From Methanosalsum zhilinae DSM 4017 (GTDB lineage: Archaea > Halobacteriota > Methanosarcinia > Methanosarcinales > Methanosarcinaceae), in assembly GCF_000217995.1 (NCBI RefSeq), contig NC_015676.1:1595708-1659707 (forward strand): a stretch of DNA of 64,000 nt, given 5' to 3'. Each line of letters begins with the position of its first letter. Within the stretch, counting starts at the first letter, position 1. Position numbers and translations under genes: made by a program. Shown piece after piece: positions 40,885 through 52,376 of this stretch. The notes below the pieces were generated by a model that saw nothing but the letters and a program-made list of their open reading frames with translations, had not been told where the DNA came from and searched no databases.

Positions 40885-42135
40885 TTATTCATTCAGTATT
40901 TTTTCACCGGATCTGCTGGCTGGTGCCACCACTTTACCATCTTCAGTTACAACTGGTTCTGGTTTCCATCCAAGGAAGTCAGCATTATCACTGAACATCA
41001 AGGATTCATCCATATCTCCTCTTGTAGCTTTCAGAATAAGACCTGTTATTGCTCCTGTAACAAGAGAGAGGATGAGAACTCCTACAAGACTGATGATGTT
41101 GACCATTCCAGCAGCGAAAATCGCTCCGAATATAGCTCCCACTATACCAGGGACACCGTGAAGGTTGTGTACACCCATTACATCCAGTACACCTGCCTTT
41201 TCACATAGCCATGGATGTAGTTTCACAAAACAGAACACTGAAACTGTACCTGCAACCAGACCGATTCCCAGTGCAGTCCATGGATCAACCGATATAAGTG
41301 GAGACCCTATAGCCACCAGACCTGCCAGCAGTGCATATGTATAAACAAGCGGATCAACCCTTTTCTGAAGTAGCATGCATGTAAAATATGCTGCAATTAT
41401 TGATCCCAGTCCTGCCATGTAAGCTGTGAACATACCCCAGTTTACAAGATCTGCAGGCAAGAGAGCAGTTACGAACGAAGGCCAGAGTACAAACAATAGC
41501 ATGGATGCAAGCCAGACAAAAGATATACTATGTGTAGACGTATCCATGGGTTCATTGAATGCTCTCTTTTCTCTGAGTGCTAGTATTACACCCCAGCCCC
41601 AGTAGGCGGCTACCATGTGAACAAGCATTGATCCTCCAGGATCAACAACACCTTCAAGATATCCAAACATAAACCAATCTATTGCAATCCAGGCTGGAGC
41701 AAATAGTATTCCTGCCAGGAAATACTGCCACATTTTGACAGTGCCCAAAAACACCCCGATCGCAATCACAACCGTAATGGAACAGAATATGCTCAGGATC
41801 ATTAAATCCTGGCTCCATGGTTCTCCAAATACGAACTGCTGTATTGCCATATATGTTATGAAGCTTCCAGCAAGAACAAGCAATGTGGCAAGACATATTC
41901 CCCATTCGAACTTCTTGATGAAAAGCATGAGGAAAGCCACAAGCATTAACATGAACCAGACATCCATGTTCTTATGGTATTTATGTAACTCATCTTCCAG
42001 ATGAGTCATATCTTCAGTAAGGCCTTCCTGACCTGTTGGTGTTGTCAGATCTGCTGAAACAGCAGGAACCAGCAGGTTAACAAGGCACATTACAAGGATA
42101 AGTAATAATGTTCCTCGAAACATTGAATTTCCCAT
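40885..42135 (-). CDS. Rh-type ammonium/methylammonium channel
   Basis: 416 residues with an N-terminal signal-like helix (about 7-27) and about eleven membrane helices. Rh-family rather than Amt signatures are seen: VVDPGGSMLVHMVAAYWGW with pore histidine H173, FVLWPSF, and GVHNLHGVPGIVGAIFGA with H323/H326. Rh proteins pass NH3 and methylamine; prokaryotic cases are uncommon. It is the gene after mtmB copy 1, on the same strand, behind a stem-loop. It may import methylamine, export the ammonia released by demethylation, or both. The start follows GGAGGG. Confidence 0.85.
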   Translation of the reverse strand: MGNSMFRGTLLLILVMCLVNLLVPAVSADLTTPTGQEGLTEDMTHLEDELHKYHKNMDVWFMLMLVAFLMLFIKKFEWGICLATLLVLAGSFITYMAIQQFVFGEPWSQDLMILSIFCSITVVIAIGVFLGTVKMWQYFLAGILFAPAWIAIDWFMFGYLEGVVDPGGSMLVHMVAAYWGWGVILALREKRAFNEPMDTSTHSISFVWLASMLLFVLWPSFVTALLPADLVNWGMFTAYMAGLGSIIAAYFTCMLLQKRVDPLVYTYALLAGLVAIGSPLISVDPWTALGIGLVAGTVSVFCFVKLHPWLCEKAGVLDVMGVHNLHGVPGIVGAIFGAIFAAGMVNIISLVGVLILSLVTGAITGLILKATRGDMDESLMFSDNADFLGWKPEPVVTEDGKVVAPASRSGEKILNE

Positions 42136-42211
42136 TTTAACCCTCCGTATATTTAATTCATATTATCGATACCAAAAGCAGATCATTGCTTTTATTTATA
42201 AAAAATATTTA

Positions 42212-42269
42212 GAATTTCGATATTTGATCAGGAACAAACTTATATTTGATTCTGATCTGATCGAAATTC
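42212..42269 (-). promoter_or_regulatory. Stem-loop between mtmB copy 1 and the Rh gene
   Basis: GAATTTCGAT (42212-42221) and ATCGAAATTC (42260-42269) pair perfectly. Inside, GATCAG and CTGATC add a second stem. It lies 27 bases after the mtmB stop and 77 before the Rh ATG. It could be a partial terminator or an RNA-processing site that sets a lower level of the channel mRNA. Confidence 0.65.
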
Positions 42270-42295
42270 TCAGTAAGGTACTCCTATTACCGCAT

Positions 42296-43672
42296 TCAGA
42301 ATACCAGTCCCAGTTCCTCAAGTTTCTTGCGTGCTCCGTCATAGACCTTTACGTACTCATCGGTTGGAGTAATGGTCCTGACATCGTAGCACTCCTTGAA
42401 GGTCTTGCCGGCAGGGGCTTTATCGTAGTTCTTCTCATAGAGACCTACAAGCTTGTCAAGGATCTTGTTGACCTCAGAGATATCCATACCGGCAGTAGCG
42501 CGGGCAGTCTGGCCCATCATTCTGGCTTCCATACCTGTGGTCTTATTCTCGGCAACACCCTTTGCAGAGGCGACACCGGAAAGGATCTCACGACCGGAAG
42601 CAGTATCGGTCATTGACTGGGCGGCAGCTTCAAGAAGACACATCTCGGTAGCTGGGCCTGCACATGGATAGTACTGGTTACCCTTGATCATGTCAGTGTT
42701 CTGGGTAACGGCAGCAGCAGTCCATCCGGCAATAGCAAGCGTTTCCCGGGTATTGGTGGAACCCCAGCGAATATGCACGGGACCATCAAGGTGCCAGCTT
42801 GCATTGCTCATTACAAATGCGTTAATGTGAGTTGCCACGTCCACAATTGCAGTTTCTTCTACACCGCCAGCATATCCACCAAAGATGGGCATCTGCTCGT
42901 CCATGATGATATCGCTGTTGGCATTATAGTGGGCAATGACGGATATGGCGTCAAGGTCGATCTTGAGTTCGTTTAGCTGAGAGACTTCATGACTATCATT
43001 TGAGTTCATGCCACCAGGTGCATCGGCAGCGATGTTACCCTGGGCAGTCAGTGAAGTCTCAGGACCCTATATGCCCATACCGGGTCGACCGGCAAGAGCA
43101 CAGGCCTGTTTGATAAGGCGGGCTTCGGTCTTGGCAGCAAGAATTTCGTAGGGACTGCCAGGAATTGCGGATTTGCCCATAATGGATTTGAGGACACCGT
43201 TGACAATGGTATCACATTCTTTCTCCATTGCGTAGCTCATGTGGATTGGTATGAACAGATCCTCGGAGACGGGAGCACCGGTGGGACCACCCTGAATATG
43301 GGGTTTTCTCTTATCACCAATCTCTCTTTTGCGGACATATGTCCGGTCCCTGCCACTGCCAAGTGAAAATTCTTTCTGAACGTTGTTGATGGCGTCCCAG
43401 ATTTCATCTTCAGTATATTTGACTACACGGTGAGTATCGGTACAGAAAATACCGCATTCAAGAAGCATCTCGAAACCGGCTTTGAAAAGGCGGTCAACCA
43501 TATCCATGTCAGTGGGTACAAACTCATTACCAAAGTCGAGTTTGTATTTCTGCTTGAGTTCAGCACTCTTCATTGGAATTGTCATAAGGTCCCAGTCATC
43601 CTGGGTAATCTTCTCACCTTTCTTTGCACGGTCAAAAAAGTCATAGCATGTAAATGATTTAGTAAATGTCAT
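42296..43672 (-). CDS. mtmB: Monomethylamine methyltransferase MtmB, copy 1 (pyrrolysine)
   Basis: Transfers the methyl group of monomethylamine to the corrinoid protein MtmC, releasing ammonia. It has 458 residues if the in-frame UAG at codon 202 (43067-43069) is read as pyrrolysine, as known for MtmB. The context GMGI-UAG-GPETSL and the reading frame after it are intact to a TGA. Pyrrolysine binds the amine in the active site. It follows mtmC by 19 bases with an AGGAGG site. It differs from copy 2 in one residue, Gln388 here and Glu there. Confidence 0.97.
43067..43069 (-). other. In-frame UAG read as pyrrolysine (copy 1)
   Basis: Amber codon 202 of mtmB. The coding frame continues for 256 more codons with conserved MtmB sequence. 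The pylTSBCD genes needed to make and load pyrrolysine are not in this window. Confidence 0.95.
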
Positions 43673-43691
43673 TGTTCTACTACCTCCTGGT

Positions 43692-44345
43692 TTATTTCAT
43701 GAGTTTAAGAGCAGTTCGGGCAGCTTCAGCTGCGTTTTCTGCAGTTGCATCAGCACCGATTTCCTCAATCCATTCCTGGGAGACAGGGGCACCGCCAAAC
43801 ATTACCTTGACCTTGTCACGAAGACCTTCATCTTCAAGCATTTCAATGGTCTCTTTCTGGCTGAGCATGGAAGTGGTCATTAGAGCAGAACCGACTAGAA
43901 TTACCTTCTTACCCTTGTGCTTGGCAACCTCTTCAATCAGATTCTCGTTTGCTACATCCACACCAAGATCCAGGATCTCAAAACCGTTTGCACCAAGCAT
44001 GGTGGAAACTAGTCTGTGACCAATATCGTGAATATCTCCTTCCTGGACATAGGTGATGGCAAGACCTACACCTTCTTCTCCTTCCATTTCCTTCTCAAGC
44101 TCAGGAGTCAGAATCTGCATGGCAGCGTTCATGGCCTTGGAGGACATCATGATCTGAGGAAGGTAGAGTTCAGCAGCTTCGAATTTATCTCCTACGATCT
44201 TCATACCCTCGGCAAGGCCAGAGTTGATAGCTTCAAAAGGACCTATGCCAGAGTCAAGGGCTTCCTGGGCACCCTTCTTTGCACCTTCAATATCCTGATT
44301 AACAATTGCGTCTTTCAATTTATCTAACATTTCCTGTTTTCCCAT
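43692..44345 (-). CDS. mtmC: Monomethylamine corrinoid protein MtmC, copy 1
   Basis: Carries the methyl group on its cobalamin from MtmB to MtbA. It has 217 residues: an N-terminal helical cap (about 1-90) and a Rossmann-like B12 domain with the axial-ligand motif D104-x-H106-x-x-G109 (EGDIHDIGH). Later SALMTTS and MFGGAPVS stretches bind the cobalamin tail. The start MGKQEML at 44345 follows AGGTGA. An upstream in-frame ATG at 44366 lies outside the repeat and is rejected. The protein is the same as copy 2. Confidence 0.96.
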   Translation of the reverse strand: MGKQEMLDKLKDAIVNQDIEGAKKGAQEALDSGIGPFEAINSGLAEGMKIVGDKFEAAELYLPQIMMSSKAMNAAMQILTPELEKEMEGEEGVGLAITYVQEGDIHDIGHRLVSTMLGANGFEILDLGVDVANENLIEEVAKHKGKKVILVGSALMTTSMLSQKETIEMLEDEGLRDKVKVMFGGAPVSQEWIEEIGADATAENAAEAARTALKLMK

Positions 44346-44876
44346 TTTGTCACCTTTTTTTTTCATTTATACTTATAGAAGAAAACTATTCAGTTAGTTT
44401 TCATCACATATGCTTTTACAACTAATGTATATAGTATGATTTGAGCTGAAAAATCGGGTATTGAGGTATGTGTCAGATAGTTAGATACTTTTTACATAAT
44501 ACGCTACTAAACATGTGTAACGGTACTTTTATAGGAGTATTGTACCAATTAATATTAAGGATAGTAAAAAATCAACCCAGAAATGTTAAGCAGTTGAAAA
44601 TTTTTGTGCAAAGACACATGGTTATGTACAGAAAACTAAAATTTAGAAAAAAATATCAAATTGAGTTCCTGATGAATCCACTGATAAATAACTATCATCA
44701 GCATAATAAAATATATTTTTAACCACTGGTTGTGATTTAAGAACTAATCTGTTGAAACAATTATACAAAAATGAAATTGATATAACCCTGATATAAATCA
44801 AAAATAAAAAAGGTAAGAAAGCCGATTTTAGTTCAGCCTTCTTTGTGTTAGCTACTTTAAATCAAGCTAAGCACAC
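44346..44876. promoter_or_regulatory. 531-base gap with mtmC copy 1 promoter
   Basis: No real gene; an 84-codon plus-strand frame has no ribosome site and odd composition. On the minus strand, CTATATAC (44427-44434) is a good TATA box about 80 bases before mtmC, preceded by TCAAATCATA. The matching copy 2 region has TCAAATTATG before CTATATATC. Further up, ACATGTGTAACG (44511-44522) recurs as ACATGTGTTACG before copy 2, a candidate regulator site. AATCGGG (44452-44458) is also shared, at a different distance. Confidence 0.6.
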
Positions 44877-45440
44877 TTAGATTCCCAGAGCTGGTATTGC
44901 AGGAACACCGTATGCGATAAATCCTACAATCAGACCAAGACCTATTATGAATGCCTCTATAGAGAAGAGAATAAGGCATGCACCACAGACTTTACCGGAA
45001 ATCTTTCCATAGTCCATAGCTGCAACTATAAGCAGAATTGCAACAATGGTTAGCATGATCAGTGCCCATATAAGGTATCCAAACATAATATCTGCGATTG
45101 CATAGACTAGGAATATACCGGCACTGAACAGTGCTAGATGTCCCACACCTGTAGCTTCGAATTCCCTATAGGACATATAAGCTATACCAACAAATATCCA
45201 TCCAAAGACAATTATCGCATAACCTACAAGAGCAGCGGTTTCACCAAATGCAGCCGCATCCGATGCTAATATTACCAGAATTCCAGTAATGAAGTGAACA
45301 ATACCTCCAATAAGTAATATAATCCATATTGGTCTTGCATCTTCTCCAACGCCAAGCAGGAATGCTCCTACAGGCATCAGGGCTACGAAGTCAGTTAAAA
45401 ACGCAGCTGCAAGTAAAACAACTATAAGTTCCATACTCAT
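44877..45440 (-). CDS. Six-helix membrane protein, UreI/AmiS-like
   Basis: 187 residues, almost all hydrophobic, with six predicted helices and few charges. The length and the layout (two related halves, GEDARPIWIILLIGGIVHFI near helix 2) recall the AmiS/UreI channels that pass urea, short amides or acetate, but this is a judgement by eye. It is the gene after mtmB copy 2 on the same strand, behind a stem-loop, with AGGAGG before the ATG. By context it may be a methylamine or ammonia channel. Confidence 0.6.
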   Translation of the reverse strand: MSMELIVVLLAAAFLTDFVALMPVGAFLLGVGEDARPIWIILLIGGIVHFITGILVILASDAAAFGETAALVGYAIIVFGWIFVGIAYMSYREFEATGVGHLALFSAGIFLVYAIADIMFGYLIWALIMLTIVAILLIVAAMDYGKISGKVCGACLILFSIEAFIIGLGLIVGFIAYGVPAIPALGI

Positions 45441-45486
45441 TTTTAAGTACCTCCTAATTTACATCTTTCTTTACAAATAAAATATT

Positions 45487-45514
45487 TTGAATTTTGATAG
45501 ATATCAAAATTCAA
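45487..45514 (-). promoter_or_regulatory. Stem-loop between mtmB copy 2 and the UreI-like gene
   Basis: TTGAATTTTGATA (45487-45499) and TATCAAAATTCAA (45502-45514) are perfect 13-base arms around two bases, in practice a 12-pair stem with a tetraloop. It starts 11 bases after the mtmB stop. The core GAATTTTGAT resembles GAATTTCGAT of the loop after copy 1, so the two elements may share an origin and a job. Confidence 0.7.
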
Positions 45515-45524
45515 TTTAACGCAT

Positions 45525-46901
45525 TCAGAATACCAGTCCCAGTTCCTCAAGTTTCTTGCGTGCTCCGTCATAGACCTTTACGTACTCATCGGTTGGAGTA
45601 ATGGTCCTGACATCGTAGCACTCCTTGAAGGTCTTGCCGGCAGGGGCTTTATCGTAGTTCTTCTCATAGAGACCTACAAGCTTGTCAAGGATCTTGTTGA
45701 CCTCAGAGATATCCATACCAGCAGTAGCGCGGGCAGTCTCACCCATCATTCTGGCTTCCATACCTGTGGTCTTATTCTCGGCAACACCCTTTGCAGAGGC
45801 GACACCGGAAAGGATCTCACGACCGGAAGCAGTATCGGTCATTGACTGGGCGGCAGCTTCAAGAAGACACATCTCGGTAGCTGGGCCTGCACATGGATAG
45901 TACTGGTTACCCTTGATCATGTCAGTGTTCTGGGTAACGGCAGCAGCAGTCCATCCGGCAATAGCAAGCGTTTCCCGGGTATTGGTGGAGCCCCAGCGAA
46001 TATGCACGGGACCATCAAGGTGCCAGCTTGCATTGCTCATTACAAATGCGTTAATGTGAGTTGCCACGTCCACAATTGCAGTTTCTTCTACACCGCCAGC
46101 ATATCCACCAAAGATAGGCATCTGCTCGTCCATGATGATATCGCTGTTGGCATTATAGTGGGCAATGACGGATATGGCGTCAAGGTCGATCTTGAGTTCG
46201 TTTAGCTGAGAGACTTCATGACTATCATTTGAGTTCATGCCACCAGGTGCATCGGCAGCGATGTTACCCTGGGCAGTCAGTGAAGTCTCAGGACCCTATA
46301 TGCCCATACCGGGTCGACCGGCAAGAGCACAGGCCTGTTTGATAAGGCGGGCTTCGGTCTTGGCAGCAAGAATTTCGTAGGGACTGCCAGGAATTGCGGA
46401 TTTGCCCATAATGGATTTGAGGACACCGTTGACAATGGTATCACATTCTTTCTCCATGGCGTAGCTCATGTGGATTGGTATGAACAGATCCTCGGAGACG
46501 GGAGCACCGGTGGGACCACCCTGAATATGGGGTTTTCTCTTATCACCAATCTCTCTTTTGCGGACATATGTCCGGTCCCTGCCACTGCCAAGTGAAAATT
46601 CTTTCTGAACGTTGTTGATGGCGTCCCAGATTTCATCTTCAGTATACTTGACTACACGGTGAGTATCGGTACAGAAAATACCGCATTCAAGAAGCATCTC
46701 GAAACCGGCTTTGAAAAGGCGGTCAACCATATCCATGTCAGTGGGTACAAATTCATTACCAAAGTCGAGTTTGTACTTCTGCTTGAGTTCTGCACTCTTC
46801 ATTGGAATTGTCATAAGATCCCAGTCATCCTGGGTAATCTTCTCACCTTTCTTTGCACGGTCAAAAAAGTCATAGCATGTAAATGATTTAGTAAATGTCA
46901 T
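45525..46901 (-). CDS. mtmB: Monomethylamine methyltransferase MtmB, copy 2 (pyrrolysine)
   Basis: Same enzyme as copy 1, 458 residues with UAG codon 202 at 46296-46298 read as pyrrolysine. Residue 388 is Glu (MMGETAR) where copy 1 has Gln. It is followed by the stem-loop and the UreI-like gene in place of the Rh gene. High identity between copies points to recent duplication or ongoing gene conversion. Confidence 0.97.
46296..46298 (-). other. In-frame UAG read as pyrrolysine (copy 2)
   Basis: Amber codon 202 of the second mtmB, with the same flanking bases as in copy 1. Confidence 0.95.
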
Positions 46902-46920
46902 TGTTCTACTACCTCCTGGT

Positions 46921-47574
46921 TTATTTCATGAGTTTAAGAGCAGTTCGGGCAGCTTCAGCTGCGTTTTCTGCAGTTGCATCAGCACCGATTTCCTCAATCC
47001 ATTCCTGGGAGACAGGGGCACCGCCAAACATTACCTTGACCTTGTCACGAAGACCTTCATCTTCAAGCATTTCAATGGTCTCTTTCTGGCTGAGCATGGA
47101 AGTGGTCATAAGAGCAGAACCGACTAGAATTACCTTCTTACCCTTGTGCTTGGCAACCTCTTCAATCAGATTCTCGTTTGCTACATCCACACCAAGATCC
47201 AGGATCTCAAAACCGTTTGCACCAAGCATGGTGGAAACTAGTCTGTGACCAATATCGTGAATATCTCCTTCCTGGACATAGGTGATGGCAAGACCTACAC
47301 CTTCTTCTCCTTCCATTTCCTTCTCAAGCTCAGGAGTCAAAATCTGCATGGCAGCGTTCATGGCCTTGGAGGACATCATGATCTGAGGAAGGTAGAGTTC
47401 AGCAGCTTCGAATTTATCTCCTACAATCTTCATACCCTCGGCAAGACCGGAGTTGATAGCTTCAAAAGGACCTATGCCAGAGTCAAGGGCTTCCTGAGCA
47501 CCCTTCTTTGCACCTTCAATATCCTGATTAACAATTGCGTCTTTCAATTTATCTAACATTTCCTGTTTTCCCAT
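46921..47574 (-). CDS. mtmC: Monomethylamine corrinoid protein MtmC, copy 2
   Basis: 217 residues, with the same protein sequence as copy 1 and the same DxHxxG cobalamin motif. It is preceded by AGGTGA and its own promoter region. It is the gene nearest to the divergent Msr-type regulators. Confidence 0.96.
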   Translation of the reverse strand: MGKQEMLDKLKDAIVNQDIEGAKKGAQEALDSGIGPFEAINSGLAEGMKIVGDKFEAAELYLPQIMMSSKAMNAAMQILTPELEKEMEGEEGVGLAITYVQEGDIHDIGHRLVSTMLGANGFEILDLGVDVANENLIEEVAKHKGKKVILVGSALMTTSMLSQKETIEMLEDEGLRDKVKVMFGGAPVSQEWIEEIGADATAENAAEAARTALKLMK

Positions 47575-47589
47575 TTTGTCACCTTTTTT

Positions 47590-47989
47590 GAAATATGGAT
47601 ACTGAGAAACATTTTGTTTCTCTTGCTCTATGTTTGTACAATTCTGATATATAGCATAATTTGAATGTAATATTTAGAAATAGTAGTATAATTTAAATAA
47701 TCGGGACTTTTAGCACAGCAAGAGATATGCTATCATAGTAAGTACATAGCAAATATATTTATATATTCGACTATATCTATACTAAATATATGGTAGAGTA
47801 CTTTACATGTGTTACGATAATTCACATAACCAAAAGTATCTTTAAGTACCAATGACTTCATTTGTTATGAAGTGATAAAATCATCTCTGTTGATATAATC
47901 AGCTACAAAATGAAAATTTAAATATGAATGACTGCTAAGCTAATCTCAAATATTGTTTCAGTTTTAGATAACTGGTCTGGGTGTAAAAT
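47590..47989. promoter_or_regulatory. Divergent control region, mtmC copy 2 / regulator 1
   Basis: A 400-base AT-rich gap with no gene. On the minus strand a TATA box CTATATATC (47646-47654) lies about 75 bases before mtmC copy 2. ACATGTGTTACG (47805-47816) matches the copy 1 motif with one change. AATCGGG is at 47699-47705. The plus-strand promoter of the first regulator must lie near 47930-47970. Confidence 0.55.
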
Positions 47990-48772
47990 ATGAAACTGGC
48001 TTTAAGTGATGCTATCTGGATCTCTGACAAAAGACGAAATCTTTTACTTCTATTAACAGAAGGTCCCAGAAATATTGATCAGATAAAAGCAGCTCTAAAT
48101 GTTAATTCCCGATCAATGATGCCTCAGATCAAAATACTGAAGGACTGGGAGCTGATTGAACAGCAGGGAGAATTTTACATTTTAACAGATACAGGAAAAT
48201 TACTTGTAGAGAATATGCAGCCATTATTGGATTCTCTTAATGTGATAGAAGAGAATAAAGAGTACTGGTGCAAAAGGGACCTTAGCTCAATTCCCCCACA
48301 TATTTTGAAAAGAATTGGAGAATTGGGACACTATTTTATTATTGAGCAGGACATAAACCATCTCTTTGAGCTTCCAAAAGAATTTACAGAGAATATACCA
48401 AAATCCAGATCCATTATGTCCTTTGCAGCATACTTTCACCCAGTATATCCTTCTATCTATTCAGAAATTATCGATAACGGAAGTCAGCTGTCACTTATGT
48501 TTACCCGGCCAGTATTTAACAGGATGAAAGAAGACTACAGTGAATATCTGGACAAAATACTTGCATCCGAAAATTGTGAGGTTTTAGTCTGTGATGAGCA
48601 GATCAATCTACCTACAATAACAGTTACTGATTGGTTCTTATACATTTCCTTTTTTGATCATACCGGCCGATATGACCACAAGATCGTTATGAGCTTTGAT
48701 TCAGATGCATTAAGATGGGGTGAAGATCTATTTGATCATTACAAAAGCAGCGCGAACCGTATCGATAAATAA
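47990..48772 (+). CDS. Msr-type winged-helix regulator 1 (DUF1724)
   Basis: 260 residues. The N-terminal winged helix (SDKRRNLLLLLTEGPRNIDQIKAAL, then MMPQIKILKDWELIEQQG) is followed by a long C-terminal domain of the DUF1724 type (YWCKRDLSSIPPHILKRIGELG). Proteins of this kind (MsrA-G in Methanosarcina) control substrate-specific methyltransferase operons. Divergent placement next to mtmCB makes the methylamine genes the likely targets. Confidence 0.85.
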   Translation: MKLALSDAIWISDKRRNLLLLLTEGPRNIDQIKAALNVNSRSMMPQIKILKDWELIEQQGEFYILTDTGKLLVENMQPLLDSLNVIEENKEYWCKRDLSSIPPHILKRIGELGHYFIIEQDINHLFELPKEFTENIPKSRSIMSFAAYFHPVYPSIYSEIIDNGSQLSLMFTRPVFNRMKEDYSEYLDKILASENCEVLVCDEQINLPTITVTDWFLYISFFDHTGRYDHKIVMSFDSDALRWGEDLFDHYKSSANRIDK

Positions 48773-48895
48773 TATCCTTGGTTGCAATGTCATCGACTAC
48801 ATAAGTAATAATGCAGGTCAATTATCGCACTTATTGAGAACTTATACGAAAACTGTTGAAATCACATTTATTTATGGTTATGAGGGGATTTTACA

Positions 48896-49675
48896 ATGGA
48901 ATCATCATTAAGCGATATAATATGGCTTTCGGATAAAAGAAAAAAAATACTGACATTACTTTTAGAGGGTCCAAAAAGCGCCGATGAAATTAAAAATGAA
49001 TTTGGATGCACGTGGAGACCACTCATATCTCCGATGAAAAAACTTAAAGAAGAACAACTCATAATTCAGGATAACAATCATTACAGACTAAGCTATGTTG
49101 GAAAAATCCTAACTGAAAACATGCACCCTCTCCTCAAGATACTTGATATGTTCGAGTGTGATTATCAGTACTGGAAATCTCGTGATTTTGATCCCATTCC
49201 ACCGGGTTTGATGGACAGAATGGGTGAACTTGGCAATTGCAGGTTACTTGAACCACCTCTTGACAGAATATTTGAACTCGACGAATCTTTTCTTGATAAA
49301 ATTTCTGAATGTAAATACATCAATGCCCTGTGTCCGTTTTTCCATCCCGAGTATATTGATCTGTATTGTAAGATGGTATCCGAAAAAGCCCGGATATGTC
49401 TGATATTTAAAGAACCGGTTTTTGAAAGATTACAGCAGGACTGTGAGAATAAACTAAATATTCTACTTGATTCAAAAAATACCGAAATTTTGATGAACAG
49501 AAGCGATCTCCAGATTCCAGGAATCGTAGTTTCAAATAATGCTTTTTTGCTGAGTCTGTTTGAAAAAAATGGTAACTATGATCATAGAGACGTAATAGGT
49601 TTTGATAATTCTTCAATAAGATGGGGAAACGATCTTTTTTCTTATTATAGAGATCTATCTGAAAGAGTAGAATAA
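48896..49675 (+). CDS. Msr-type winged-helix regulator 2 (DUF1724)
   Basis: 259 residues, a diverged paralogue of its neighbour with the same layout: winged helix (SDKRKKILTLLLEGPKSADEI, PMKKLKEEQLI) and sensor-like C-terminal domain (YWKSRDFDPIPPGLMDRMGELG). Tandem regulator pairs are known for the methanol genes of Methanosarcina. Here each might serve one mtm cassette, or the two may act together. Confidence 0.85.
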   Translation: MESSLSDIIWLSDKRKKILTLLLEGPKSADEIKNEFGCTWRPLISPMKKLKEEQLIIQDNNHYRLSYVGKILTENMHPLLKILDMFECDYQYWKSRDFDPIPPGLMDRMGELGNCRLLEPPLDRIFELDESFLDKISECKYINALCPFFHPEYIDLYCKMVSEKARICLIFKEPVFERLQQDCENKLNILLDSKNTEILMNRSDLQIPGIVVSNNAFLLSLFEKNGNYDHRDVIGFDNSSIRWGNDLFSYYRDLSERVE

Positions 49676-49716
49676 TAAAATCTATGATCTGAAATAAAGA
49701 TGGATGTTTGTTTTTC

Positions 49717-51957
49717 ATGAAATGGGATGATGCTCCACTTAAGTTGAAAATGATTCTCTACATAGCTGTTGCTGTCACCTTTATTATGGCATCATCTACA
49801 GCAGTTATCATTTCAGTCGTCACATCCCAAAAAATCGATATAGAGTACCAGAGATCAGTTGATATTTCACAGAATTATGCAAATCAGTTCAATGCTGATA
49901 TGCGTGAAAATATGGCAATACCAAACACACTGGCCAGAAGTCTAGAAAACTACGAATCCGGAAACAGGACTGAAATAAATAATATATTGAAAAATGTAAT
50001 TGAAACAAATCCGGGTTTGATTGGAGTCTATGTAGGTTATGAACCTGATGCCTTTGACGGACGGGATTCAGAATATATAAATGCTGAAGGGCATGATGAA
50101 ACCGGAAGATTTATTCCATTCTGGAACAGGATAGGAGGAGATGTGGATGTTGAACCTCTGGTAGACTATGATGTTGAAGATTATTACCAACTTCCAAAAC
50201 AATTAAAATCGGATATCGTAACCGAGCCATATCTTTATCAGGGTGCATTGATAGTAAGTTTTGTATCTCCAATTATTATAGATGATGAATTTAAGGGTAT
50301 AGCTGGAGTGGACGTATCACTTGACTATATAGATGAATCAGTATGCAATATCCAGATACTTGATAATGGTTATGCAATGGTTGCAAGTGATGGAGGAATC
50401 CTGCTTTCACATCCACAGGATAAGGAAAATATAGGTCACATGACCCTTGATGAATTCCACCTGGATCCAATATTTACAATGATGGATGACATCGGTCATG
50501 GAAAAGCGGGTCACATAGAGGCTATAGACCCGATCACCGGTAAAAATTCCATAATATTCTACGAGCCTGTGGAAGTGGGTAATTTTTCATTTATATTATC
50601 AATACCAAAGGATGAGATGCTTGCTGATGTTATGGCATTGAGGGATAAGCTCATAGTCATATCAGCCCTAGCCATTGTATTTATGGGAACAATGGGATAT
50701 ATGATCGCCCTTTCGATAAACAGACCTATCAATGAAATCGTTAACAGTTTTAAAAGAGTATCTTCTGAAGTTTCAAGAGGCAAGCTTGGTTCAAGAGCTG
50801 ATACTGATGTTGCAGTGGACTTTAAAGAGATCCCTGTGGGCCTTAACGAAATTCTGACAACTCTGGAAAATTATTCTGCTGAATTGAAGAAATCAAATGA
50901 AACAATGCAGGAAATGAGGGTTGTTATCAATAGCAGTCAGGTAGTTGTATTTTTGTGGAAAATTGAAAAAAAATGGCCTGTGGAAGTTGTATCCGAGAAT
51001 ATTACACAATTTGGTTATACAGTAGAAGAATTTACTTCAGGCAAACTGCTGTATGGGGATATAATTCATCCGGATGATATTGAAAGAGTGGAAAAGGACA
51101 TAGATCAATTGATTTCAGATCATATTACTACCTGTAACTTTGATAGAAATTACAGAAATAGATGTTCATCTAAAAGACCAAAATATTTTACTTCTGAATA
51201 TAGAATCATAACCAAAGAGGGCGATATCAGGTGGGTTGACGAAAGAACATTACTGAGAACCGATGGTCAGGGAAATGTCACTCATCTTCAGGGAATAATC
51301 CTGGATATAACAGATAGAAAAAAAGCTGAAGATGCCCTTTTGAATATTGAAACCATTAGAAAAAAAGAGATACACCACCGGGTAAAAAATAATCTTCAGG
51401 TCATATCCAGCATGTTGTTCCTAGAAGCTGAGCATTTTACCGATCCTGATGTAGTTGAAGCTTTTAAGAATAGCCAGAACCGGGTTCGTTCAATGGCGCT
51501 AATTCATGAAGAGATATATAAGTCCGAAGATATGAAAAGTATCGATTTTACTGATTATATCAATAAGCTTGCAGTTTATTTACTGGAAGCATATAATATA
51601 GGAAAAGAAAAAATAAGACTTAATGTAGATGTAGAAAATGTTTATCTCAGTATAGATACTTCTATTCCACTGGGAATGATCGTTAGTGAACTTGTATCCA
51701 ACTCCTTAAAGCATGCCTTTGATGAGGGTGATGACGGTGAGATCACCATCATTCTTAAAAGTGAAGACAATGAATTCATTCTCATTGTTGGTGACAATGG
51801 AAAAGGATTTCCCCTGAATATAAATTTCAAAGAAAGCGATTCTCTTGGATTGCAGCTTGTGAACACTCTTGTAGATCAGATCGATGGAACCATTGAAATG
51901 AACACCGAACATGGAACAGAATTTAGAATCATATTTAAGGAAATTGACAGGACTTAA
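49717..51957 (+). CDS. Membrane histidine kinase with extracellular Cache domain
   Basis: 746 residues from the ATG at 49717 (a TTG at 49708 is in frame). In order: helix 1 (about 12-34), a large extracellular double-Cache domain (to about 305), helix 2 (about 312-334), HAMP-like linker, a PAS domain (about 395-545), the HisKA_2 dimerisation motif with H553/H554 in IHHRVKNNLQVISSML, and an HATPase domain ending the protein. A Cache aromatic/acidic pocket (GRFIPFW, GVDVSLDY) is typical for small amines or amino acids. It probably passes phosphate to the receiver encoded next. Given its place, methylamine is an attractive ligand. Confidence 0.88.
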   Translation: MKWDDAPLKLKMILYIAVAVTFIMASSTAVIISVVTSQKIDIEYQRSVDISQNYANQFNADMRENMAIPNTLARSLENYESGNRTEINNILKNVIETNPGLIGVYVGYEPDAFDGRDSEYINAEGHDETGRFIPFWNRIGGDVDVEPLVDYDVEDYYQLPKQLKSDIVTEPYLYQGALIVSFVSPIIIDDEFKGIAGVDVSLDYIDESVCNIQILDNGYAMVASDGGILLSHPQDKENIGHMTLDEFHLDPIFTMMDDIGHGKAGHIEAIDPITGKNSIIFYEPVEVGNFSFILSIPKDEMLADVMALRDKLIVISALAIVFMGTMGYMIALSINRPINEIVNSFKRVSSEVSRGKLGSRADTDVAVDFKEIPVGLNEILTTLENYSAELKKSNETMQEMRVVINSSQVVVFLWKIEKKWPVEVVSENITQFGYTVEEFTSGKLLYGDIIHPDDIERVEKDIDQLISDHITTCNFDRNYRNRCSSKRPKYFTSEYRIITKEGDIRWVDERTLLRTDGQGNVTHLQGIILDITDRKKAEDALLNIETIRKKEIHHRVKNNLQVISSMLFLEAEHFTDPDVVEAFKNSQNRVRSMALIHEEIYKSEDMKSIDFTDYINKLAVYLLEAYNIGKEKIRLNVDVENVYLSIDTSIPLGMIVSELVSNSLKHAFDEGDDGEITIILKSEDNEFILIVGDNGKGFPLNINFKESDSLGLQLVNTLVDQIDGTIEMNTEHGTEFRIIFKEIDRT

Positions 51958-51971
51958 TATGGTAGATCAAT

Positions 51972-52376
51972 ATGACTGATATCAGGATACTTATCGTTGA
52001 GGATGAAAACATAGTGGGGCTTGAGATTAAAAAGAGACTCAAAAAACTGGGATATTCTGTTCACGCAGTTGCAAAAACCGGAGAGGAGGCAATCATAAAA
52101 ACCGCTGCAACTTCTCCAGATATTATTTTGATGGATATTATGCTTAAAGGAGAAATGGATGGAATTGAGACTGCAAGGCAAATAAAAAATCAGCACAATA
52201 TACCTATAATATACCTGACTGCATATTCAGATGAAGAAACAATCTCCAGGGCAAAAGAAACAAATCCCCATGGATACATACTTAAACCGTTTCAAGAAGA
52301 TGATATGAAAATCACTATAGAGATGGCACTTCACAAACACAGGATGAATATGGACAGGAAAACAGAACAAGCCTGA
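51972..52376 (+). CDS. Receiver-only response regulator
   Basis: 134 residues, a single receiver domain: phosphoacceptor D55 in IILMDIMLKG, acidic pair E10/D11, later Thr (IIYLTAYS) and Lys (YILKPF). It has no output domain, so the signal must pass on by protein contact, perhaps to the Msr-type regulators. It starts 14 bases after the kinase stop. Confidence 0.92.
   Translation: MTDIRILIVEDENIVGLEIKKRLKKLGYSVHAVAKTGEEAIIKTAATSPDIILMDIMLKGEMDGIETARQIKNQHNIPIIYLTAYSDEETISRAKETNPHGYILKPFQEDDMKITIEMALHKHRMNMDRKTEQA

Follow-up and report, generated by a model that had tools for sequence, protein, structure and literature searches.

Gene order and regulation aside, the monomethylamine locus of the haloalkaliphilic methylotrophic methanogen Methanosalsum zhilinae DSM 4017 raises one question: what does an Rh-type channel transport when its gene directly follows mtmB, a methylamine methyltransferase gene? 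The locus lies in the 64,000-nucleotide stretch analysed here (the window; positions 1,595,708–1,659,707 of the single 2,138,444-base contig NC_015676.1). As established for these protein families, MtmB demethylates methylamine, passing its methyl group to the corrinoid protein MtmC and setting ammonia free. We consider methylamine uptake, with ammonia able to exit by the same pore, the probable role of the Rh protein and favour it over ammonia export alone. The Rh gene and the cassette preceding it are located as follows (window coordinates).

40885–42135, minus strand: Rh50 channel of a methylamine-linked clade
42296–43672, minus strand: mtmB upstream of Rh, with an in-frame amber (pyrrolysine) codon at 43067–43069
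43692–44345, minus strand: mtmC upstream of Rh, start codon ATG at 44345, matching the other copy (reading frame open to 44366)

The association of Rh with methyltransferases in M. zhilinae is not new. Rh50 genes were reported beside methyltransferase genes in M. zhilinae and two Methanomassiliicoccales, with a shared operon suggested and NH3 excretion proposed (Matassi 2017; PMC5209957), and, for Methanomassiliicoccales, ammonium transporters encoded close to the monomethylamine genes were proposed to export ammonium (Borrel 2014; PMC4153887). Our results extend this work with the replacement of the permease MtmP by Rh, the occurrence of Rh beside a second methylamine pathway (gmaS) and the repeated acquisition of Rh.

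Identity and pore of the Rh protein

The window protein matched PF00909 (1e-32). Its closest solved relatives in phmmer searches were Nitrosomonas Rh50 (NeRh50, 3b9w; 1e-46) and human RhCG (9e-27), with RhAG also among the best matches; assignment to Amt was rejected, given that bacterial Amt reached only 4e-5. The protein is thus nearer to Rh than to Amt and carries the twin pore histidines of Rh50. In trees, it grouped with the methanogen, actinobacterial and acetogen Rh proteins of the Rh50_prok_meth clade, and its nearest named relatives were those of Methanosalsum species (98% and 88%).

The twin histidines (H173 and H326), D165 and the second phenylalanine (F221) were invariant across all 46 clade members aligned. 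In Escherichia coli AmtB and yeast Mep2, methylamine conduction needs both histidines, whereas ammonia still passes when either one is lost (PMC3647058). For NeRh50, channel assays with 14C-methylammonium have been published (PMC10433425). The first (outer) gate phenylalanine, at position 117 of the window protein, was kept in Methanosarcinaceae and Actinobacteria, whereas all 22 sequences from Methanomassiliicoccales and termite guts had isoleucine or valine there. This difference constitutes a natural experiment on the pore gate.

Replacement of MtmP by Rh in Methanosarcinaceae

In a survey of 112 Methanosarcinaceae genomes, with MtmP scored as Pfam AA_permease, MtmP was found in 68 genomes and true Rh in 11. 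Only one genome carried both, against 6.7 expected (hypergeometric P = 3e-4; P = 0.002 when stratified by genus; as the genomes are related, these values serve as a guide). Rh lay directly downstream of mtmB in eight of the 11 Rh-bearing genomes, the remaining three being cut by contig ends. Across three genera, the slot X in mtmB-X-rfc-secD was occupied by MtmP in some species and by Rh in others (comparisons of genome G074 with G079/G087, G005 with G004, and G010/G012 with G015). Among 22 Rh-bearing genomes beyond the survey, none yielded a close relative of MtmP; two held distant permeases only (25% and 36% identical).

A preliminary description of the locus had contrasted it with Methanosarcina, in which mtm regions were said to be linked to MtmP rather than to channels of these types. 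This contrast was too strong: some Methanosarcina and Methanolobus have Rh beside mtmB, and in those Methanosarcina it stands in the exact place that MtmP takes in other members of the genus. Separately, the genome G008 of the Methanosarcinaceae held an Rh gene belonging to another branch (33% identical; L050:7511-8593), close to a contig end and without mtm genes in its vicinity.

Rh neighbourhoods across public genomes

When the Rh alignment was used to search 84,980 species genomes by sequence only, blind to neighbouring genes, 44 loci were returned, of which three were cut at contig ends and 41 were informative. Methylated-amine genes adjoined Rh at 40 of these. They comprised mtmB at 28 loci, including one in a Synergistaceae metagenome-assembled genome (MAG); gmaS at 11 loci, in 10 Actinobacteria (all 10 with mgsABC) and Methylonatrum kenyense; and mtbB-mtbC at one locus, in Natroniella. 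The preliminary description had named the lack of a conserved neighbourhood as a ground for its own refutation; adjacency of Rh to mtmB was conserved both here and among the Rh-bearing Methanosarcinaceae.

GmaS, a member of the glutamine synthetase family unrelated to MtmB, captures methylamine, and gmaS marks the start of the unrelated, aerobic N-methylglutamate route of methylamine use. The top PDB match of the encoded protein was 'Glutamate--methylamine ligase' (2e-109), and TIGR03105 was matched above its cut-off. The actinobacterial genes were also considered as plain glutamine synthetases; this was rejected because glutamate–methylamine ligase ranked first and mgsABC-like genes follow. 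Given that Rh lies beside both mtmB and the unrelated gmaS, methylamine is the common denominator and therefore the likeliest shared substrate. Judging from these neighbourhoods, the Rh clade travels with methylamine catabolism, whichever enzyme carries it out. A literature search that left most subscription journals outside found no paper connecting Rh50 with gmaS or with the N-methylglutamate route.

Transfer and repeated acquisition

The Rh protein of Methylonatrum kenyense, a methylotrophic gammaproteobacterium of soda lakes, was 84% identical to the window Rh, and its gene lay directly downstream of gmaS (L089:477-3185). It grouped with Methanosalsum Rh in the tree (support 97/99); the approximately unbiased (AU) test did not separate branching inside Methanosalsum from branching at the base of the Methanosarcinaceae branch (p = 0.32). 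The pair is a strong candidate for Rh gene exchange between archaeon and bacterium in soda lakes. G+C contents at the Methylonatrum locus were 0.56 for Rh, 0.54 for gmaS and 0.63 for the flank, and matches to mgsC in the searched assembly were fragments only. Mis-assembly was considered and rejected, as Rh and gmaS are both carried by a 217-kb contig from a named strain, with Rh ca. 2 kb from its end.

The Rh proteins of termite-gut Methanosarcinaceae grouped with those of Methanomassiliicoccales, and a single Methanosarcinaceae Rh clade was rejected (AU p = 9e-5). Rh nevertheless stands just after mtmB in both branches. According to the trees, the family thus gained Rh at the mtmB slot at least twice.

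These findings bear on the view that Rh, together with the UreI-like protein described below, is there for ordinary nitrogen acquisition or for pH/CO2 gas exchange, standing beside mtm genes by chance. Amt and Rh proteins generally scavenge ammonium, and some Rh proteins have been suggested to conduct CO2 (PMC10433425). However, a separate Amt-like gene is kept in the genome (C1:1959433), and both the association with methylated-amine genes at all but one of the informative loci and the repeated gain at one slot speak against chance. We regard this explanation as very improbable.

A UreI-like protein at the second cassette

The order on the minus strand is mtmC-mtmB, a gene for a 187-amino-acid membrane protein, mtmC-mtmB and the Rh gene. 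The first three genes and the gap between mtmB and the membrane protein gene are placed as follows.

46921–47574, minus strand: mtmC upstream of the UreI-like gene
45525–46901, minus strand: mtmB upstream of the UreI-like gene, with an in-frame amber codon at 46296–46298
45487–45514, minus strand: 12-bp hairpin in the gap between mtmB and the UreI-like gene
44877–45440, minus strand: divergent six-helix UreI/AmiS-like membrane protein, predicted UreI/SatP fold

All genes listed in the preliminary description were found in place, including two near-identical pyrrolysine mtmCB cassettes. Its claim that the cassettes carry different channels also held, with the pairing corrected by position: Rh follows the cassette at 42296–44345, and the UreI-like gene follows that at 45525–47574.

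The UreI-like protein matched PF02293 below the cut-off of 25 bits (17.6 bits, E = 0.0043). Its homologue in genome G049 (81% identical) scored 26.3 bits, the only match above the cut-off across Methanosarcinaceae. Comparison with AmiS proteins by hhalign gave a probability of 34% (E = 4e-4), and identity to the AmiS/UreI proteins compared was 21%–25%. An earlier structure model from two sequences was too poor for use (predicted local distance difference test, pLDDT, 53); the model retained (pLDDT 74) was based on an alignment that included four AmiS sequences. It had six helices, and Helicobacter pylori UreI ranked first in Foldseek. The fit to UreI (Z 15.2, root-mean-square deviation 3.2, 164 aligned) tied with that to SatP (Z 16.2), and these two matched the model better than the other natural proteins listed. 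The protein is thus predicted to adopt the UreI fold. Given that the acetate channel SatP matches as well as UreI, the substrate cannot be read from the fold.

The gene occurred in two of the 112 Methanosarcinaceae genomes, both times beside methylamine methyltransferase genes: mtmCB in the window and mttB-mttC-mtbC-mtbB in G049. The conserved neighbourhood found for Rh therefore does not extend to the UreI-like gene. No relatives were returned by a single-protein scan of genome contigs, and none were found on plasmids; in a sample of 393 genomes of the phylum, the window's own genome alone gave a match, and G049 was likewise not returned.

A normal urea or short-amide channel unrelated to methylamine would agree with the fold, the Foldseek rank and the weak PF02293 matches, and canonical AmiS genes do lie beside an amidase-like gene in a Synergistaceae genome. 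In M. zhilinae, however, no urease alpha gene was found in the genome, and the single CN-hydrolase is ca. 700 kb from the UreI-like gene. Furthermore, both known homologues adjoin methylamine methyltransferase genes, and the fit to SatP leaves the fold silent on substrate. For this gene alone, a urea or amide role is conceivable but somewhat doubtful. With modest confidence, we suggest that the product of this gene, in the transporter slot, probably provides another small-molecule channel for the same amines. Within the limits of the search, which left most subscription journals outside, no literature linking AmiS to methylamine in methanogens was found. The Synergistaceae genome mentioned above carries its canonical AmiS genes in tandem (L139, L140) and also has an mtmCB-Rh locus (L115).

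Cassette copies and regulation

Both MtmB proteins of the window matched PF05369 (E ~1e-227) and were full length with a single in-frame TAG, and MtmC matched pyl_corrinoid TIGR02370 (270 bits; cut-off 215). They thus represent the MtmB/MtmC system, with full-length amber MtmB and its cognate corrinoid protein. The two cassettes were 99.1% identical across 2074 nt, with identity ending ca. 15 nt before mtmC and just past mtmB. Given that the regions upstream of mtmC differ, the copies can be controlled differently. A third mtmCB copy (99.5% identical; C1:677 kb, L005:7255-9304) lies ca. 960 kb away without a channel and adjoins purB; a transposase-type helix-turn-helix open reading frame also adjoins it. 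The congener G072 (L065) likewise carries mtmCB-purB. The position of the third copy is therefore old, and gene conversion or recent copying has kept the copies similar.

A fourth MtmB-family gene lacks the amber codon (C1:368074-369423; L006:8069-9430). It is divergent from an MFS transporter gene and near HdrB/HdrC-like genes, and MtmB paralogues without the codon are common in the family. A non-pyrrolysine MtmB homologue has been reported as required for methanogenesis from tetramethylammonium and choline (2026 paper; PMC13044021), which is a possible explanation for this gene.

The remaining features are a second hairpin and a plus-strand block divergent from the mtm side.

42211–42270, minus strand: strong RNA hairpin in the gap between mtmB and Rh, then A/T-rich DNA that includes a TATA-like stretch
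47990–48772, plus strand: Msr-type regulator 1, winged helix and FilR1_middle/DUF1724
48896–49675, plus strand: Msr-type regulator 2
49708–51957, plus strand: dCache-PAS-HisKA_2 sensor histidine kinase
51972–52376, plus strand: stand-alone receiver-domain response regulator

The two regulators matched PF08350 FilR1_middle (2.5e-40 and 1.8e-33), with helix-turn-helix matches below the curated cut-offs. Their winged helix, FilR1_middle/DUF1724 domain and position beside methyltransferase genes are those of Msr proteins. The kinase combined dCache_1, PAS, HisKA_2 and HATPase_c, and the receiver matched PF00072. Near mtmCB, two Msr genes with a kinase gene were present in seven other genomes sampled and one Msr gene with a kinase gene in six more. 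Judged by this recurrence, the conserved partner of the sensor-regulator block is mtm and not the channels. Together with the Cache kinase and its receiver, the two Msr regulators would probably tune mtm expression to amine supply.

The neighbourhood set out in the preliminary description is conserved, with Msr and Cache kinase genes beside mtmCB in those 13 genomes. Its treatment of the locus as one unit goes further than the gaps between mtmB and the channel genes allow. Hairpins occurred in both gaps (z = -4.7 relative to shuffles before Rh and -1.9 before the UreI-like gene), and the Rh gap also held the TATA-like stretch, so that either channel gene may be served by a separate promoter or by weakened readthrough from mtmB. 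Overall, its interpretation is partly supported; that the locus senses and takes up methylamine and disposes of ammonia is what we infer from its genes.

Uptake or ammonia export

As a methylamine uptake route, Rh would take the role presumed for the APC-type permease MtmP in most relatives. In a standard Rh-type pore, methylammonium would be deprotonated, the neutral amine would pass and ammonia could return by the same path. The cytoplasm of an alkaliphile would be less alkaline than the brine, and incoming methylamine might thus be trapped as methylammonium.

The published alternative is that Rh serves as an exhaust for methylamine-derived ammonia, NH3 being toxic at pH 9–10, while methylamine enters otherwise (Matassi 2017; Borrel 2014). 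Ammonia is the substrate for which Rh channels are best known, and the mtmB and N-methylglutamate routes both release it. However, this leaves unexplained why Rh stands exactly where MtmP does in other genomes, why the pair is almost mutually exclusive and why Rh lies beside gmaS, a methylamine-capture gene, instead of beside ammonia-releasing genes generally. In addition, most Rh bearers do not seem to be alkaliphiles, judging from gut and sludge records. We therefore consider export alone unlikely, though a far more serious contender than a role in nitrogen acquisition or gas exchange.

Several observations weigh against methylamine uptake. Given that both methylamine pathways release ammonia, adjacency alone cannot separate uptake from ammonia export. 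The genome with both transporters, MAG G089, departs from the exclusion of MtmP by Rh, and MtmP was, to our knowledge, named a methylamine permease from gene linkage, not from transport assays. As read from the alignment, the pore is not uniform across the clade, its first gate phenylalanine being isoleucine or valine in the Methanomassiliicoccales branch. The hairpins and the TATA-like stretch weaken simple co-transcription of mtmB with the channel genes, and the UreI-like gene is rare. Finally, a Lachnospiraceae microcompartment locus was the one informative locus without methylamine genes. There (UBA7026, L120:4195-9071), Rh of the same clade accompanies a glycyl-radical activase-like gene, PduB and an acylating aldehyde dehydrogenase, which suggests an amine-releasing microcompartment pathway.

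With these points considered, uptake remains our favoured role; the substrate of Rh, its direction of transport and the regulation of the locus are what we infer. A broader proposal is nearly balanced, tilting slightly towards doubt: methylamine rather than ammonia might be the physiological substrate of the whole Rhesus branch, which would have passed between archaea and bacteria, been set beside two unrelated methylamine pathways and been swapped with MtmP more than once, with the UreI-fold protein as another solution reached independently in that position. Methylamine is the laboratory stand-in for ammonium in Amt/Rh assays. If the proposal is true, a clade that naturally carries methylamine would assign the debated Rh family a clear part in methane formation and in the one-carbon cycling of soda lakes, and the kept or lost phenylalanine gate would provide a natural pore series for testing amine selectivity. 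The published idea of an ammonia exhaust becomes directly testable against uptake.

Comparison with known systems

The Rh50_prok_meth clade of Matassi (2017), defined with M. zhilinae, Methanomassiliicoccales, Acetohalobium and Citricoccus, includes the same gene in the same organism, and the methyltransferase operon proposed for it fits the locus. Whereas NH3 excretion was proposed there from three methanogens, here membership of the clade grows to many genomes, place-trading with MtmP is seen, and actinobacterial members, Citricoccus included, were found beside gmaS-mgsABC, pointing to methylamine. The N-methylglutamate cluster (gmaS, mgsABC) has Rh of the same clade beside gmaS in Actinobacteria and Methylonatrum, although its chemistry is unrelated and it has no corrinoid or pyrrolysine enzyme. 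The UreI-like protein shares with H. pylori UreI/AmiS (PF02293) six helices, the predicted fold and a signature around 'FE-x2-GxGHLALF ... D-x2-FG-x-x-W', but its identity and Pfam score are low and it is not beside an amidase or urease gene. Compared with mtmC-mtmB-mtmP of Methanosarcina, the locus has the same methyltransferase pair and slot, with downstream rfc/secD shared in several genera; in contrast, the M. zhilinae cassettes are in tandem, and their slots hold Rh or the UreI-like protein in place of the APC permease.

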